NCBI GenBank assembly: GCA_938074445.1
Contig: CALJEK010000016.1
Span: 1 to 64,000, forward strand
Source: Candidatus Kryptoniota bacterium
Lineage (GTDB): Bacteria; Bacteroidota; Ignavibacteria; Kryptoniales; Kryptoniaceae
Direction: 5' to 3'
DNA length: 64,000 nt
The translations under genes and the position numbers were made by a program. Of the stretch, positions 52,223-58,953 are shown one piece after another (the first letter of the stretch is position 1; the number at the start of each line of letters is the position of its first letter). The notes beneath the pieces are model-generated. The model was given only the letters and a program-made list of their open reading frames with translations. It did no database searches and was not told the origin of the DNA.

Positions 52223-52260
52223 TAAAGTAAAAAATCGCAATTCGTTGAAAGGTCTTGGAT

Positions 52261-55260
52261 ATGCTTAAAAAATTTACACTATTTTTCCTGCTATTATCAA
52301 CATCGTTGTTCGCTCAGGTAAACTTGCAGGAGATGCGCGATTTTAAATTCGCTTATTCTCTCTTTGAGGATAGGATGTATCAACTTGCCTTCTCAGAGTT
52401 TCAAAAGTTTATAATGAATTATCCAGAGAGTAAGCTTGCAGAGGAAGCGCGATTTTTCAGCGCAGAATCAATGTTTAAACTTGGCGAGTATGACACCGCC
52501 CTTAAAATTTATCTTTCGCTTTTATCAGACCTTCCGAACACCAGATTTAAAGATAGAGCAAATTACCGAATTGCGGAAATATATCTAAAACGAAAAAATT
52601 ATACTTCCGCCATTGAAAATTTTAAAAGAACGATCGAAAATTCGTCCGATAAATTGTTAATTTCTCAATCAGCGTATTATCTCGGAGATATTTACTTTGG
52701 GCAAGGTGATTATAAAAACGCATTGAGATATTACACCCTTTCTTATGAAGTTGACACAACGAGCGAGGTTGCCCCTTTTTCACTTTTTTCCATCGGTTTA
52801 ACCCTTCAAAAGCAGGCGAAATTTCAAGATGCGATCGAAAAATATAAAAGTTTGCTCGAAAAGTTCAGCAGAAAGGATGGGGAATTGAATAAGCTTTTAA
52901 ACGACGCAAAGTTAAATCTTGTCAATTGTTATTATGAGCTTGGAAACCATAGAGAAGTTGCTGGGCTTGCCCGTGAGATTTTGAGTAGCGGGGTTGAGAA
53001 CGAAAAAGTAATTTTTATTCTTGGGGAAAGTTATTACGCTATTGGTTTATATGATTCGGCGATGTTTTATTATGAGAATTATCTGAAAAATTTCCCCAAT
53101 GGCGAGTTAAAGAATCATTCGCTTTATTCAATCGGTTGGATTTATTATAAGCAAGGTAATTATGGTAAGGCAATCCAAATTTTCGACTCCCTTTCCAAAG
53201 GTGGTGATGAGATAGCGAATTTTTCGCTTTATTATCTTGGGGAAGTTAAAAAGGCTTCGGGTGATACCGTTGGTTCGATTTTAACGTTTAAAAGTTTTGT
53301 TGAGAGAAATAAAAACTATTCTAAATTATTTGCTTTGGCAAATTACGAGCTTGGGTTGATTTATTTCTCGCAGGGCAAATATGATAGCGCAATCGTCTAT
53401 CTTGAAAAAATCCACATTGATGATACAACTGGCATTGGCGTGAAAGCGTTTGAGCTACTTGCTCAGTCTTATATAAGACAGGGCAATTATTCAAAAGGCG
53501 CTTCAATTTTGCGAATGATAAGAAATGAAATGAAACTTTCAACTGAGAGTGAGGCAATTAACATTTATACCGAAGGTGTTGCTTTAATGCAAGAAGGGAA
53601 GTTTGATGAGGCAATAAAAGTTTTTGAGGAGTTTTTGTCGAGGTTTCCAAATAACTCTAATGTTGAGTGGTCGCTTCTTTATCTTGGTGAGATGCATTAT
53701 AAATTGGGTGATTATAGAAATGCGAGAAGATATTATGCCGAGGTTTTAAACCGTTTCCCGAGGAGTCGTAATGCTGAACAAGCGCTTTATTCAGTTGCAT
53801 GGTCATATTTTAAAGAAGGGGAGTATAAAGAGGCAGCAAAGCAATTTGAAAAGTTTTTGAGTATATACTCAACGGGGAAAAGGGCACTTGATGCGCGACT
53901 TAGACTCGCGGATTGCTATTTTATGATGAAGAATTATAAGCAAGCGGAGTCGAATTATCTTTCTTTTGTGCGACTTTTCGGGAATCAAGAAGGCGCTGAT
54001 TACGCTTATTTTCAACTTTCACAAATTTATCTTCGGCAACGTCAGTTGATGCGCTCGCTTGAGATGTTAAATCTTTTGCTTGATAGGTTTCCAGATTCAC
54101 CTCTTGCCCCTTCGGCAAAGTATCAAATGGGATGGATTTATTTTCAAGATAAAAATTATACGCCTGCTATAAACTCGTTTCGTGAGGTGGTTGAAAAATA
54201 TCCAGATAGCGAAGTTGCACCAAAGGCGCTTTACGGCATTGGCGATGCTTACTACAATATGGGGAGATATGAACTTGCTCTGAAATCATATCTTGAGGTG
54301 ATTGAAAAATATCCTAATTCAAGATATTCTGAGGACGCAATTTCGGGCATCCAATACTCGCTCTCAGCGCAGGGGAAAAATCCAAATCTTGTTGACGATT
54401 TAATTTCAAAGAGTAAAAATCCCGATTTTCTTGAGCTCGTTTTGATGAAGAAAGCTGAATTCCAAATTTCGCAAGGAAACTATTCAGAGGGCATAAATCT
54501 TTATAAAAAATTTATAGCGAATTACCCGGGAAGCAAATTCTTACAAAAGGCTTATTATGATCTCGGAAGGGCTTATGAATCTACGGGTAAAAATTTTGAG
54601 GCGGTTGAAATTTATAAAAATCTTGTTTCAAATTATCCGCTAAGTGAATATGCTCAAAATGCGCTTGTTCGTCTTGGATGGTTGAAGTTTAATTTGGGAG
54701 AATTTTCTGAGGCAATTGGGTATCTTGGCAAGGTTGAAACTAAGGTAAAATTTTATGATGAGGTTCTTTATCTTATCGGATTGAATTATCTTTCGTTGGG
54801 TGATACAGCTGGGGCTTTGAGGAAATTTAGCGAGGTCGTAAATAAATTTCAGAACTCCGACTTTTCAGATAGAGCGAGGGTTAAACTGGGAGAAATTTTG
54901 TTAAATTATGACAAAGCCAATGAAGCGATTGAAATTTTAAAGCCTGTTGTCACGCACAGGGCAACAGATGAAGTTTCGGCAGAGGCGCAGTATCTTTATG
55001 CAGAATCATTTTTCAAACTTGGGGATATTGATGGGGCAATACTTCAATTTTTGAGGGTCAAATATTTATACGGTGAGTATGTTAAGTTGTTGCCGATGAC
55101 TTATTATCGAATTGCGCAATGTTACGAAAGCAAGGGAGATTACTCTAAAGCAATACAGTTTTTAAACGAAATTCTTAAGATGCACATAACCGATGAGATG
55201 AAGGCGAAAGTTTTTGAAAACTTGGAACAGCTAAAAACAAAAATGAGGGCCGAAGGATGA
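52261..55260 (+). CDS. large periplasmic TPR-repeat protein
   Basis: Secreted protein of 999 residues: signal peptide (1-20, cleaved after SLFAQ) followed by TPR/Sel1-like helical repeats almost to the end, with tell-tale cores such as ALKIYLSLLSDLPNTRF, YRIAEIYLKRKNYTSAIENF, AYYLGDIYFGQGDYKNALRYY, and many 'FPNS-AEQALY' linkers of the BamD/YbgF type. It probably acts as a protein-interaction scaffold in the periplasm; the exact partner is unknown. ATG 52261 is chosen over TTG 52255. Its last codon overlaps the cytochrome start (ATGA). Confidence 0.85.
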   Translation: MLKKFTLFFLLLSTSLFAQVNLQEMRDFKFAYSLFEDRMYQLAFSEFQKFIMNYPESKLAEEARFFSAESMFKLGEYDTALKIYLSLLSDLPNTRFKDRANYRIAEIYLKRKNYTSAIENFKRTIENSSDKLLISQSAYYLGDIYFGQGDYKNALRYYTLSYEVDTTSEVAPFSLFSIGLTLQKQAKFQDAIEKYKSLLEKFSRKDGELNKLLNDAKLNLVNCYYELGNHREVAGLAREILSSGVENEKVIFILGESYYAIGLYDSAMFYYENYLKNFPNGELKNHSLYSIGWIYYKQGNYGKAIQIFDSLSKGGDEIANFSLYYLGEVKKASGDTVGSILTFKSFVERNKNYSKLFALANYELGLIYFSQGKYDSAIVYLEKIHIDDTTGIGVKAFELLAQSYIRQGNYSKGASILRMIRNEMKLSTESEAINIYTEGVALMQEGKFDEAIKVFEEFLSRFPNNSNVEWSLLYLGEMHYKLGDYRNARRYYAEVLNRFPRSRNAEQALYSVAWSYFKEGEYKEAAKQFEKFLSIYSTGKRALDARLRLADCYFMMKNYKQAESNYLSFVRLFGNQEGADYAYFQLSQIYLRQRQLMRSLEMLNLLLDRFPDSPLAPSAKYQMGWIYFQDKNYTPAINSFREVVEKYPDSEVAPKALYGIGDAYYNMGRYELALKSYLEVIEKYPNSRYSEDAISGIQYSLSAQGKNPNLVDDLISKSKNPDFLELVLMKKAEFQISQGNYSEGINLYKKFIANYPGSKFLQKAYYDLGRAYESTGKNFEAVEIYKNLVSNYPLSEYAQNALVRLGWLKFNLGEFSEAIGYLGKVETKVKFYDEVLYLIGLNYLSLGDTAGALRKFSEVVNKFQNSDFSDRARVKLGEILLNYDKANEAIEILKPVVTHRATDEVSAEAQYLYAESFFKLGDIDGAILQFLRVKYLYGEYVKLLPMTYYRIAQCYESKGDYSKAIQFLNEILKMHITDEMKAKVFENLEQLKTKMRAEG

Positions 55261-55649
55261 AAAAGATGGCGCTTTTTTATACAGGATTACTGCTCTTTAT
55301 AATTATCGGATTAATCATTGCGGTTGAATTGAATAAAAAAGAAAGCGGAGTTAACACGGGCACGGTTGCATGGGGGCAGACCAGTGTTGGGAGAAATTTG
55401 CAGGTTTTGACAGATGTTCGCTCAAAAGAACAATTGCAAAAAATTATGGAGGAAATCTCCGATGCTCTTGGTGTTAAATGTAACTATTGCCATGATGTCA
55501 ACAATTATTCAAGTGATGTGAAAGAAACGAAGAGGAAAGCCAGAGTAATGCTTAAAATGGTGATGACGATAAATCGTGATTTCATAAACTGGGAGGGCGC
55601 TCAAGTAGTTGATTGTTCAACATGTCATCGCGGTCAAACGAAACCGTAG
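55257..55649 (+). CDS. membrane-anchored diheme c-type cytochrome
   Basis: Protein of 130 residues with an N-terminal membrane anchor (about 5-24) and two heme c attachment sites, CNYCH (75-79) and CSTCH (120-124). The spacing and the segment VLTDVRSKEQLQKIMEEI before the first site resemble the photosynthetic reaction-centre cytochrome c-like family found as small stand-alone proteins in Bacteroidota and Acidobacteria; no photosynthesis is implied. Likely electron carrier on the outer side of the inner membrane. Overlaps the TPR gene by four bases. Confidence 0.87.
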   Translation: MKKMALFYTGLLLFIIIGLIIAVELNKKESGVNTGTVAWGQTSVGRNLQVLTDVRSKEQLQKIMEEISDALGVKCNYCHDVNNYSSDVKETKRKARVMLKMVMTINRDFINWEGAQVVDCSTCHRGQTKP

Positions 55650-55677: not shown

Positions 55678-57348
55678 ATGAGAGGAATTACTTGCGTGCT
55701 TTTGTTTTTTGTTTCTGCGAATCTTTTGTCGCAGGAGATGAAGCCGAGAGAGATGGAGTTCAAAATTGACACGACAAAATTTGATGGAGCAAAGGCTGAA
55801 TTCATACTCCCCGAATTTGTGATAACGGGACGGGAAACAATCGAAGTTGAGATCGGGCAAAAATTGGAAACCATCGATGTTAACCTGCCTATGGTTGATT
55901 TGACCTTATATAAAATTTCGTCCGCTGAAAAATTTACACCCGAAGTTTCAGTTAAAGTTTCAAAAAGTGATTATGTGAAATTTCCCGAGAGAAATCCTGT
56001 CGCTAAGTTCAAGGTGGGCGTTGGGAGATACATGACAACTTACTTCGATGGCATACTTCAAGGTAATGTCACTAAAAATTTTTCAATCAGTTCAAATTTT
56101 TATCATCGTTCAAGTCAAGGGTTTATTGAGAACGCGGATTATGTGAGAAATCAATTTTCTGTTAACACAGGTCTTCACCTTCCACAAATAAAAGATAAAA
56201 TTTTTGATTGGCTTGGTGGTGCGAAAATTACGACTTCAGTCAGTTACTTAACTTATAGTTTTGGTTTTTATGGTTCTACTTCTCCGAGCTTTCATAGAAA
56301 TATGAATAACTTCAATCTGGGGTTTCTCATCGAGTCGCCATATAGAAACAATTTTGATTATGGCTTAGGATTTAATTACTCAATTTTTACATTGCTTGAT
56401 ACAATAGCAAGCTATGACAGTTCGAATTTTGATGGGAAAGAGAAGCGATTTGATTTGAGTTTTAATTATAAACATAAGGTCGATTTTTTAAAATTGATGT
56501 TTAGCGTTGATTACGCGCCTTTGCCGATTAGATACCTCAGGATAGGGATATTCGCTGGGAATTTGCTTGAGTTTTTTGAAATTAAGAGAAGTTATGTTCT
56601 TGATTTGGGGGTTAAGCTATTTTCATTCCAAAATTATGATTTAACGAACAGATTTAGGGTTTATCCCGATGTTTCATTTAAATATCTTGCCGATGGGAAG
56701 ACACAAATTTATACTTTTTTTGCGCCGGAAGTTTTAAATTTGACGGTTTCAAATTACTTGTGGACGAATAGATTTTTGGCAAAGAAATTAAACATCCACC
56801 ATCCCGAGGGGTATTTTAATCTCGGTTTTGGGGTGAAATATGGGGTGGGTAATTTTGGTGTTGATGTTGGGTTAAATTTTAAAGCATTTAAAGATTTCCC
56901 AATATATGTTGATGAAGACGAAGATGGGTTTTACGCAGTTGAATTTGAACGGGTTCAATTTACCGAGTTAAAGGGCTTGGGCTATTTTAATTATCGGGGT
57001 GGCGAGCTTATTTTAGGGATCGTTTTAAATTCATCGTATAATGCGAGAAATAAAAAAACCGTTCCATATTACCCAAGTTTTTCAGCTAATCTTGAATATA
57101 AACACCGTTTTGCTTTTGGATTTGTAATTAATCTGAAAATTGATTTAATTAGTAGTAGAGTTTACAATTTTAGTGGAGATGAGCTGAAGGGATTTGCACT
57201 TGTAAATCTTGGAGCGGAGTATGAAGTCTTTAGAAATTTCAAGGTTTTCTTGAATTTTGATAATTTGTTGAATCAGAAATTTTACATTTGGCATAGATAT
57301 CTTGAACCCAACACAGTTTTCATCGGTGGGATTGAATATAAATTTTAA
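55678..57348 (+). CDS. outer-membrane beta-barrel protein (TonB-receptor-like)
   Basis: Exported protein of 556 residues with a signal peptide (1-17, ending ANLLSQ). After a short periplasmic segment (PEFVITGRETIEVEIGQKL) the sequence consists of alternating hydrophobic/aromatic strands and ends in aromatic GGIEYKF, the pattern of a beta-barrel inserted by BAM. It lacks a clear plug domain, so it may be a porin-like or TonB-dependent-like protein rather than a full receptor. ATG 55678 gives a clean signal peptide; an in-frame ATG at 55609 lies inside the cytochrome gene. Confidence 0.75.
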   Translation: MRGITCVLLFFVSANLLSQEMKPREMEFKIDTTKFDGAKAEFILPEFVITGRETIEVEIGQKLETIDVNLPMVDLTLYKISSAEKFTPEVSVKVSKSDYVKFPERNPVAKFKVGVGRYMTTYFDGILQGNVTKNFSISSNFYHRSSQGFIENADYVRNQFSVNTGLHLPQIKDKIFDWLGGAKITTSVSYLTYSFGFYGSTSPSFHRNMNNFNLGFLIESPYRNNFDYGLGFNYSIFTLLDTIASYDSSNFDGKEKRFDLSFNYKHKVDFLKLMFSVDYAPLPIRYLRIGIFAGNLLEFFEIKRSYVLDLGVKLFSFQNYDLTNRFRVYPDVSFKYLADGKTQIYTFFAPEVLNLTVSNYLWTNRFLAKKLNIHHPEGYFNLGFGVKYGVGNFGVDVGLNFKAFKDFPIYVDEDEDGFYAVEFERVQFTELKGLGYFNYRGGELILGIVLNSSYNARNKKTVPYYPSFSANLEYKHRFAFGFVINLKIDLISSRVYNFSGDELKGFALVNLGAEYEVFRNFKVFLNFDNLLNQKFYIWHRYLEPNTVFIGGIEYKF

Positions 57349-57365: not shown

Positions 57366-57644
57366 ATGAACAAGGGTGAGCTGGTAAAATTGCTCGCACA
57401 GGATTTGAAATGGAGCGCAGCAAAGACTGAAAGAGTCGTTGATGTGTTTTTTAATTTGATATCTGAAATTTTGACGAAGGAGAGGAAATTGAACTTGTCT
57501 AAGTTCGGGGTTTTCACAGTAAAGCATAGAGCAAGCAGAAAGGGGCGTAATCCTAAAACTGGTGAGGAGCTGATTTTACCACCGAGAGATTATCCGCATT
57601 TTAAGCCAAGTAGATCGATAATTAACGCAATTAACACTAGATAG
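57366..57644 (+). CDS. HU/IHF-family DNA-binding protein
   Basis: Nucleoid-associated protein of 92 residues. MNKGELVKLLAQDLKWSAAKTERVVDVF forms the dimerising helices and LSKFGVFTVKHRASRKGRNPKTGEEL contains the beta-arm and the conserved KGRNPKTGE. The Pro at the arm tip that kinks DNA is in the IPPR-like LPPRDYPHF region. Followed seven bases later by a second HU-domain gene. Confidence 0.9.
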   Translation: MNKGELVKLLAQDLKWSAAKTERVVDVFFNLISEILTKERKLNLSKFGVFTVKHRASRKGRNPKTGEELILPPRDYPHFKPSRSIINAINTR

Positions 57645-57651
57645 TTTCGGA

Positions 57652-58953
57652 ATGGATAAGAGTGAATTTTTAAATTTACTTTCAAAGCGTGCAAATATTT
57701 CTTATGATGAAGCGAAATTATTTTACGACAAGTTTATTGCAAGATTTGTGAGGGCTATAAAATCTGGTCAAAGTGTTAAAATCTCTGGGTTTGGTGAATT
57801 CAGGCGGAAGCTTAGAAAGGGGAAAAGAGTTTTTGACCCTAAAACTGGTCTCGAAAGAATGAGCCCATCAAAAGCTGTCGTTAGCTTTTCACCTGCGAAA
57901 ATTTTTGCCGATAAGATCAATATAAGATACAAAAATCTTAAGTCAGTTGCCGTTAAGGTGCAACCGCCTATCGTTGAGGAAAGAGGGACGGAGGAGTTTA
58001 AACTCACATTTTTTGAACAGGAGAAAAAAATAGAAGGTGTAAGCTCAGAAGTTATTTTTGGTGAGCATGATGTGGTTGAACCGATTCAAACTTTAAAGAT
58101 GCAAGCTGAGGATTATTTGATTTTACCTAAGGAACCAATATTGGAGGGAAAAGTTGAAGCGATAGATATTGAAATCCCTATTTTTGATGTTTTTCAGAAG
58201 GTTGATTTTTCTGGTGATTTAAAACAGGAGGAGGAAGTTATAGAATTTAGTGAATTGGAGAAAGTAAAAATTAATGAGGAGGTAACAATGCCGGAATTTA
58301 ACTTAACGGAAGAAGAGGGGCGATTTCAAGAAAAGGGTGAATCGAAAAAATTTTTTGATGATACACAAAAAAAGGAGGTACCAGCAATGGCATTTGAATA
58401 TGAAGGTGAAGAGGAGAACAAGAGAACAGGCTTTTGGGTATTTCTTCTGGTGGTATTTTTGATTTTTATCGGTGGGGTTGTTTTTTTGCTAAATCAATAT
58501 GGTTATATCCATTTGTGGGGTGCGGGTAAGAAAGCAGATAAGGTGGAATTCAAACCGCCGGAAGAAGTTATTATAGCGACGCCTCCAGAGGTGAAGCTAA
58601 AACCAGAGGCACCAGCAACAGTTGAAGAAAAGAAACCGGAGCCTACGGTTGCTATTAAATCTCCGAAGGTTAGCAAATCAGTTTTAAAGGAAAGGAGAAA
58701 TTATATAATTCAAGTTGCCTCATTTCAAGATAAAAAGTCAGCGGATGCTTTCGCAAGCAGTTTGAGGAAAAAAGGTTATAATGCTTTTGTTGAGAGGGCT
58801 TTTGTTGAATGGAAAGGGGGAAACTGGTATCGCGTTCGTGTTGGTTTTTTTGATTCAATTGAACAAGCAAATGAAATTGCTAAAAAATTGAAAAGAGATG
58901 CAAATGTTGAAAAAATTTGGATAAGTGAGGCGTCAAGGGGCGTGGTAAAGTAA
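57652..58953 (+). CDS. HU domain-transmembrane-SPOR domain fusion protein
   Basis: A 433-residue protein joining three parts. Residues 1-95 form an HU/IHF-type DNA-binding domain (MDKSEFLNLLSKRANISYDE, KISGFGEFRRKLRKGKRVFDPKTG). An acidic linker (95-255) is followed by one membrane segment (about 260-281, WVFLLVVFLIFIGGVVFLL), a Pro/Lys-rich stretch and a C-terminal SPOR domain (about 348-430, IIQVASFQDKKSADAF...WYRVRVGFF) that binds denuded septal peptidoglycan. It would therefore place a DNA-binding head in the cytoplasm and a peptidoglycan anchor in the periplasm. Two internal ribosome-site/ATG pairs in the linker could give an HU-less form. Confidence 0.88.
   Translation: MDKSEFLNLLSKRANISYDEAKLFYDKFIARFVRAIKSGQSVKISGFGEFRRKLRKGKRVFDPKTGLERMSPSKAVVSFSPAKIFADKINIRYKNLKSVAVKVQPPIVEERGTEEFKLTFFEQEKKIEGVSSEVIFGEHDVVEPIQTLKMQAEDYLILPKEPILEGKVEAIDIEIPIFDVFQKVDFSGDLKQEEEVIEFSELEKVKINEEVTMPEFNLTEEEGRFQEKGESKKFFDDTQKKEVPAMAFEYEGEEENKRTGFWVFLLVVFLIFIGGVVFLLNQYGYIHLWGAGKKADKVEFKPPEEVIIATPPEVKLKPEAPATVEEKKPEPTVAIKSPKVSKSVLKERRNYIIQVASFQDKKSADAFASSLRKKGYNAFVERAFVEWKGGNWYRVRVGFFDSIEQANEIAKKLKRDANVEKIWISEASRGVVK
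58276..58290 (+). promoter_or_regulatory. internal Shine-Dalgarno and in-frame ATG within the HU-SPOR gene (first)
   Basis: GAGGAGGT (58276-58283) is followed after five bases (counted from the GG end) by an in-frame ATG at 58288, which is Met213 of the fusion. Starting there would give a 221-residue protein with only linker end, membrane segment and SPOR domain. The Glu-Glu-Val codons alone can produce this sequence, so use is unproven. Confidence 0.35.
58371..58389 (+). promoter_or_regulatory. internal Shine-Dalgarno and in-frame ATG within the HU-SPOR gene (second)
   Basis: AAAGGAGGT (58371-58379), a full complement of the 16S rRNA tail, lies eight bases before an in-frame ATG at 58387 (Met246). 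This would start translation just before the membrane segment (TM near 260), giving a 188-residue TM-SPOR protein of the usual layout. Confidence 0.4.

Follow-up and report, generated by a model that had tools for sequence, protein, structure and literature searches.

The locus analysed here raises the question of what a bacterium might do with a single protein that carries an HU domain at one end and a SPOR domain at the other. The gene lies within a stretch of 64,000 nucleotides of Candidatus Kryptoniota DNA (hereafter the window), at positions 57652–58953 of the + strand; these coordinates and the frame proved right, and the 433-aa product is encoded in one uninterrupted frame. According to the original prediction, such a protein could tether the nucleoid to the division site, a mechanism that we regard as possible.

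Profile matches, an AF2 model and the orthologues described below agree on an anatomy (HU, acidic linker, transmembrane helix, SPOR) that is nearly certain. The HU/IHF domain (residues 1–92, positions 57652–57927, + strand) matched Pfam PF00216 over residues 1–90, with 62.2 bits (cut-off 22.4; E approximately 1e-17) and 90/90 model positions covered, while the SPOR domain (residues 348–427, positions 58693–58932, + strand) matched PF05036 over residues 349–416, with 65.8 bits (cut-off 21; E approximately 1e-17). The segment between them comprises a predicted disordered, cytoplasmic linker with a net charge of −22 (residues 93–257, positions 57928–58422, + strand) and one hydrophobic helix (residues 257–282 in the AF2 model, positions 58420–58497, + strand; KD mean 3.08 at residues 262–280). 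In the AF2 model, for which the input was 15 aligned sequences, the HU fold had pLDDT values of approximately 70–85 and the SPOR fold values mostly above 90, with the linkers below 50. Foldseek placed the HU-DNA crystals 1p51 and 1p71 (28% identity) as the best matches of the N-terminal part, and recovered CwlC (1x60) and the RlpA SPOR domain with denuded glycan (6i09) for the C-terminal part (TMt 0.79–0.80). The architecture originally proposed, i.e. the order HU–membrane segment–SPOR in a single frame with an acidic linker and one membrane segment, was thus confirmed, with the expected fold predicted at both ends. We infer a bitopic inner-membrane topology with the N-terminus inside and the C-terminus outside.

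The full-length protein was found in 6/7 genomes of the genus, including that of the window, and the other five copies were 54–79% identical to the window copy; completeness of the seventh genome is 78%. The nearest named matches were from Candidatus Kryptonium thompsonii (78%) and Candidatus Thermokryptus (52%). Within the genus, the best conserved long block is the SPOR region (residues 348–422, 80% mean identity), and in the stretch that follows the membrane helix (residues 282–292, QYGYIHLWGAG) 9/11 residues are invariant. An artefact (chance HU- or SPOR-like similarity, a frameshift or a misassembled fusion) is barely conceivable and was rejected, since the same full-length architecture occurs in six genus genomes and in other families and the E-values of both domains are very low, while no point in its favour was found.

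Directly upstream is the gene of a free HU protein of 92 aa (positions 57366–57644, + strand; PF00216, 93.9 bits), whose stop precedes the start of the fused gene by 7 nt. The fused gene also follows a 92-aa HU gene, always by 6–8 nt, in the five further genus genomes. The genome of the window contains exactly three HU-family matches, namely this pair and one on another contig. To survey the Bacteroidota more broadly, custom-built HMMs were run over loci of a phylum sample, in which families carry anonymous labels (f1, f4, etc.). An HU gene was located upstream of an HU-TM gene, at a distance between −11 and +24 nt, at 27 loci in 8 families (f24, 12 loci; f1, 6; f40, 3; f5, 2; f41, f37, f33 and f21, 1 each), a spacing that is consistent with co-expression, and a SPOR domain was detected at the end of the fused protein in 24 of them. 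The three others are two f24 pairs (the remaining 10 of that family have SPOR) and the single f37 pair, in which the fused ORF ends at the slice edge, before any SPOR domain would be visible. The idea of a unique fusion was therefore abandoned, HU-TM-SPOR proteins being widespread in the sample. In f4 and f12, a lone HU domain forms the N-terminus of the SPOR protein and no HU gene lies next to it, and a hidden short HU gene sought upstream of the f4 fusions was not found.

Two f24 genomes carry, besides their SPOR pair, a second HU pair (L071, 3092–4838; L110, 1544–3056) in which the HU-TM protein ends in a possible LysM domain instead of SPOR. LysM is another type of wall-binding domain; since the Pfam matches of the two SPOR-less fusions (E = 0.046 and 0.47) are below the Pfam cut-off, this identity is only a lead.

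The loci L081–L098, judged Bacteroidia-like from their CCDC81_bac matches, encode proteins in which SPOR is preceded by two short HU domains on the same chain. These correspond to the CCDC81-like HU-SPOR proteins of Bacteroidetes, the Pfam family HU-CCDC81_bac. In hhalign comparisons the f24 free HU was assigned to tandem domain 1 (94%, against 6% with domain 2), and the fused HUs matched tandem domain 2 in f24 (97% vs 25% for domain 1), f4 (96% vs 52%) and Kryptonium (96% vs 65%). The Kryptonium free HU was ambiguous (6 and 12%), with domain 1 scoring no better than domain 2, and on the fused protein of the window PF18175 reached 19.8 bits, under its 35-bit cut-off. Both types share the N-terminal HU module, the membrane helix and the C-terminal SPOR domain, as well as the family of the barrel encoded upstream (L093, L094 and L097). 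They differ in that Kryptonium has one HU in the chain and the second in the upstream gene, and in that its HU is canonical, with a full basic arm. The profile comparison and the shared operon place the Bacteroidia proteins in the same family. The separateness from CCDC81-type proteins suggested by the original prediction was therefore lost: judging from hhalign and synteny, Kryptonium has the two-gene version of a phylum-wide Bacteroidota HU/CCDC81-SPOR family. At L114 (1692–3211), a tandem-HU ORF (289 aa) overlaps an out-of-frame TM-SPOR ORF (263 aa), as separate ORFs or through a frameshift.

This relationship bears on the suggestion that the free HU dimerises with the fused one. Because the Bacteroidia relatives hold both HUs in one chain, and the HUs of the split pairs follow the order of the tandem domains wherever the comparison discriminates (a Rosetta-stone argument), the two adjacent products likely form a heterodimer; the free HU is a conserved neighbour across the 27 loci and its product probably the partner. 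In a phylogeny of HU domains only, which is weak at 93 columns, the free HUs from the pairs of f1, f40 and f5 grouped together (support 85/81), apart from the other HU of the genome; a clade of the fused HUs of f1 and f40 was neither established nor rejected (p-AU 0.335).

The gene order in Kryptonium is TPR, small cytochrome c, barrel, HU, HU-SPOR and then a sodium:solute symporter. The TPR protein has YbgF-like repeats (positions 52255–55260, + strand; TIGR02795, 365 bits), and the outer-membrane gene encodes a TonB-receptor-like beta-barrel (positions 55678–57348, + strand; the ORF is listed from 55609 and the likely start was inferred from orthologue length), whose orthologue in L059 matched PF00593 with 37.4 bits. 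The small c-type cytochrome between them (55257–55649) is CytoC_RC-like, with two CxxCH motifs. Barrels of one HMM family lie directly upstream in f1, f4, f5, f12, f24 and f40, as well as in the three tandem-HU loci named above; TPR genes with YbgF-like repeats come before the barrel in several families, and ExbB, ExbD and TonB-like genes follow downstream in f4, f24, f40 and others. The shared operon can thus be written as TPR / outer-membrane barrel / [HU] / HU-TM-SPOR / ExbB-ExbD-TonB.

These neighbours could be read as a trans-envelope machine (barrel plus ExbB/ExbD/TonB) that is not devoted to division, with SPOR as a wall anchor and HU as a regulatory or structural add-on. The conservation of the barrel, ExbBD-TonB and TPR genes speaks for such a machine. 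However, SPOR domains generally concentrate at septa via denuded glycan, and no motor genes adjoin the Kryptonium pair, the three MotA/ExbB genes of its genome being on other contigs, which makes this reading quite unlikely. A resemblance to Tol-Pal is seen in the YbgF-like TPR neighbour and, in the relatives, in the ExbB/TolQ, ExbD/TolR and TonB/TolA genes of the operon; the TolQ-TolR-TolA genes are present at the loci of f4, f24 and f40, but not beside the Kryptonium pair.

The same operon slot is occupied in f2, f3, f9 and f36 by a TM-SPOR gene without HU, and in f6, f7 and f10 by other SPOR genes without HU. In f2 (L042–L049, L051 and L058; loci that belong, where this applies, to the window's order) the barrel operon contains a TM-SPOR gene of approximately 200 aa, followed in most cases by a TonB-like gene. 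The HU part is thus an accessory module, the TM-SPOR gene being retained without HU in some sister lineages.

The HU domain of the window has the DNA-binding look ascribed to it, being strongly basic (net charge +13) and keeping both the arm (K53, R55, K56, K58, R59) and the position of the intercalating proline (P63). In an ungapped alignment with 1p51, P63 was kept and positions 53, 55 and 58 were basic, whereas R61 was lost; in Kryptonium the canonical R61 is replaced by a non-basic residue and N62 by D. K53, K56 and P63 are invariant in the six orthologues, all of which have basic residues at positions 58/59, and net charges range from +10 to +13 for the fused and from +9 to +11 for the free HUs. 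Kryptonium is the only form examined in which both subunits have complete arms, the P63 position and a strongly positive charge. In most relatives the charge of the fused HU is close to zero or negative (near neutral in f40 and f4; −10 to −13 in the f24 SPOR pairs), and many have no arm, which was lost from the f24 fusions with SPOR, from the majority of f4 members and from tandem domain 2. DNA binding is therefore not a constant of the family. With arms and charge intact, tethering of DNA by the Kryptonium pair is plausible from its sequence, but it cannot be assumed family-wide, given the armless, acidic f24 and the near-neutral f40 forms; nor can nucleoid tethering be the central function common to the entire family, in view of these losses and of the HU-less TM-SPOR proteins in sister lineages.

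The same losses argue for a different reading, in which the protein would be a septal SPOR protein of the FtsN/DedD/Tol type and the HU pair a dimerisation or docking module that connects a cytoplasmic division factor with the envelope operon (TPR, barrel, ExbBD-TonB). FtsN, DedD and DamX have the same bitopic layout (an N-terminal cytoplasmic part, one transmembrane helix and a C-terminal SPOR domain), although in Kryptonium the cytoplasmic part is HU; the FtsN model TIGR02223 gave a weak match of 31.2 bits, below its cut-off of 107.65. The dispensability of HU in sister lineages also fits, as does a structural match of the AF2 tandem-HU model (L085, 1327–1725) to chain 8snb_1K of a sperm doublet microtubule (136 columns, TMq 0.53), which would agree with the reported link between CCDC81-like proteins and the eukaryotic centrosomal protein CCDC81. 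A possible docking site would be the conserved linker motif MPxFNL / VPVxTNL, found 34–52 residues before the membrane helix in f1, f40, f5 and f24. The pattern occurred in 10/16 representatives compared with 1.2 expected in shuffles, a statistic that is only indicative, because the pattern was picked after viewing the alignment, 1 of the 10 matches (f4) lies elsewhere in the linker and the representatives are not independent. Against docking stand both arms, the P63 position and the strongly basic HUs of both subunits in Kryptonium, and we consider this reading doubtful, if a serious contender.

Several further observations concern the same regions. In the window the linker motif reads MPEFNL (residues 213–218, positions 58288–58305, + strand; approximately 49 residues before the helix), and its distance from the helix is near-constant. 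A second motif, roughly IN.[KR]Y.NLKP, recurs after the HU domain in f1, f5, f24 and f40. Mimicry of the FtsZ C-terminal peptide by the linker motif was dismissed, as comparison by eye with the FtsZ tail of the same genome (NLIVPSYVRRG...) gave no convincing match. The matches of the L085 model, which also included the gliding machinery chains of Mycoplasma mobile (9io5), were near full-length and of low significance; single-chain IHF was not among the best matches listed.

The reading that we favour, with somewhat less than even confidence, is that of a membrane-anchored HU/HU heterodimer linking chromosomal DNA to septal peptidoglycan. Besides the gene pairing, the tandem-domain comparison and the basic arms, the well-conserved SPOR block and the possible LysM pairs speak for it; the changes at R61 and N62, the arm and charge losses and the HU-less operon slots of relatives, the ambiguous Kryptonium free HU, the low LysM scores and the lack of single-chain IHF among the best matches listed speak against it. 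The domains, their order, the gene pair, the operon, the orthology and the predicted folds can be read from the sequence; the heterodimer, its DNA binding, its septal location and its role are what we infer from them. The cytoplasmic HU domain of the fused protein would be one subunit of an IHF-like heterodimer and the HU from the gene 7 nt upstream the other. Held at the membrane, this heterodimer would bind chromosomal DNA in Kryptonium, because both subunits keep basic beta-arms. The SPOR domain would bind the denuded glycan made at division, so that the pair would link nucleoid DNA to the septal wall, the flexible linker of approximately 165 residues bridging the two ends. It would probably serve to bring late chromosome segregation into step with envelope constriction. 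The family is encoded in one operon with the TPR protein, the barrel and, outside Kryptonium, the ExbB/ExbD/TonB motor. It is rather unlikely, in a bolder version, that such a heterodimer couples the chromosome to a motor-powered operon for wall and outer-membrane constriction as an ancestral connection between nucleoid and envelope in Bacteroidota, of which the arm-less CCDC81-like proteins would be descendants.

The favoured heterodimer resembles HU and IHF alpha-beta in fold, in its adjacent paralogues that probably dimerise and in the retained arm and P63 position, but differs in having one subunit anchored in the membrane with a 340-residue extension; none of the IHF or HU equivalog cut-offs was reached by the Kryptonium protein. 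The tandem-HU form of the HU-SPOR family is already known: Burroughs et al., in 2017, are said to have dealt with CCDC81-like HU-SPOR proteins and to have already proposed a role in chromosome partition. A literature search on HU/SPOR or CCDC81-HU found nothing relevant, the 2017 HU-superfamily paper being outside its scope. What may be new is the gene pair with both arms intact, and perhaps also the operon link.

How chromosome position is coordinated with envelope constriction is poorly known in Bacteroidota, and a conserved HU plus HU-SPOR pair that shares one operon with genes for an outer-membrane barrel and a motor resembling Tol offers defined, testable parts. The Kryptonium form, in which both arms are intact, may reveal the earlier role of the CCDC81-like proteins, before the arms were lost.
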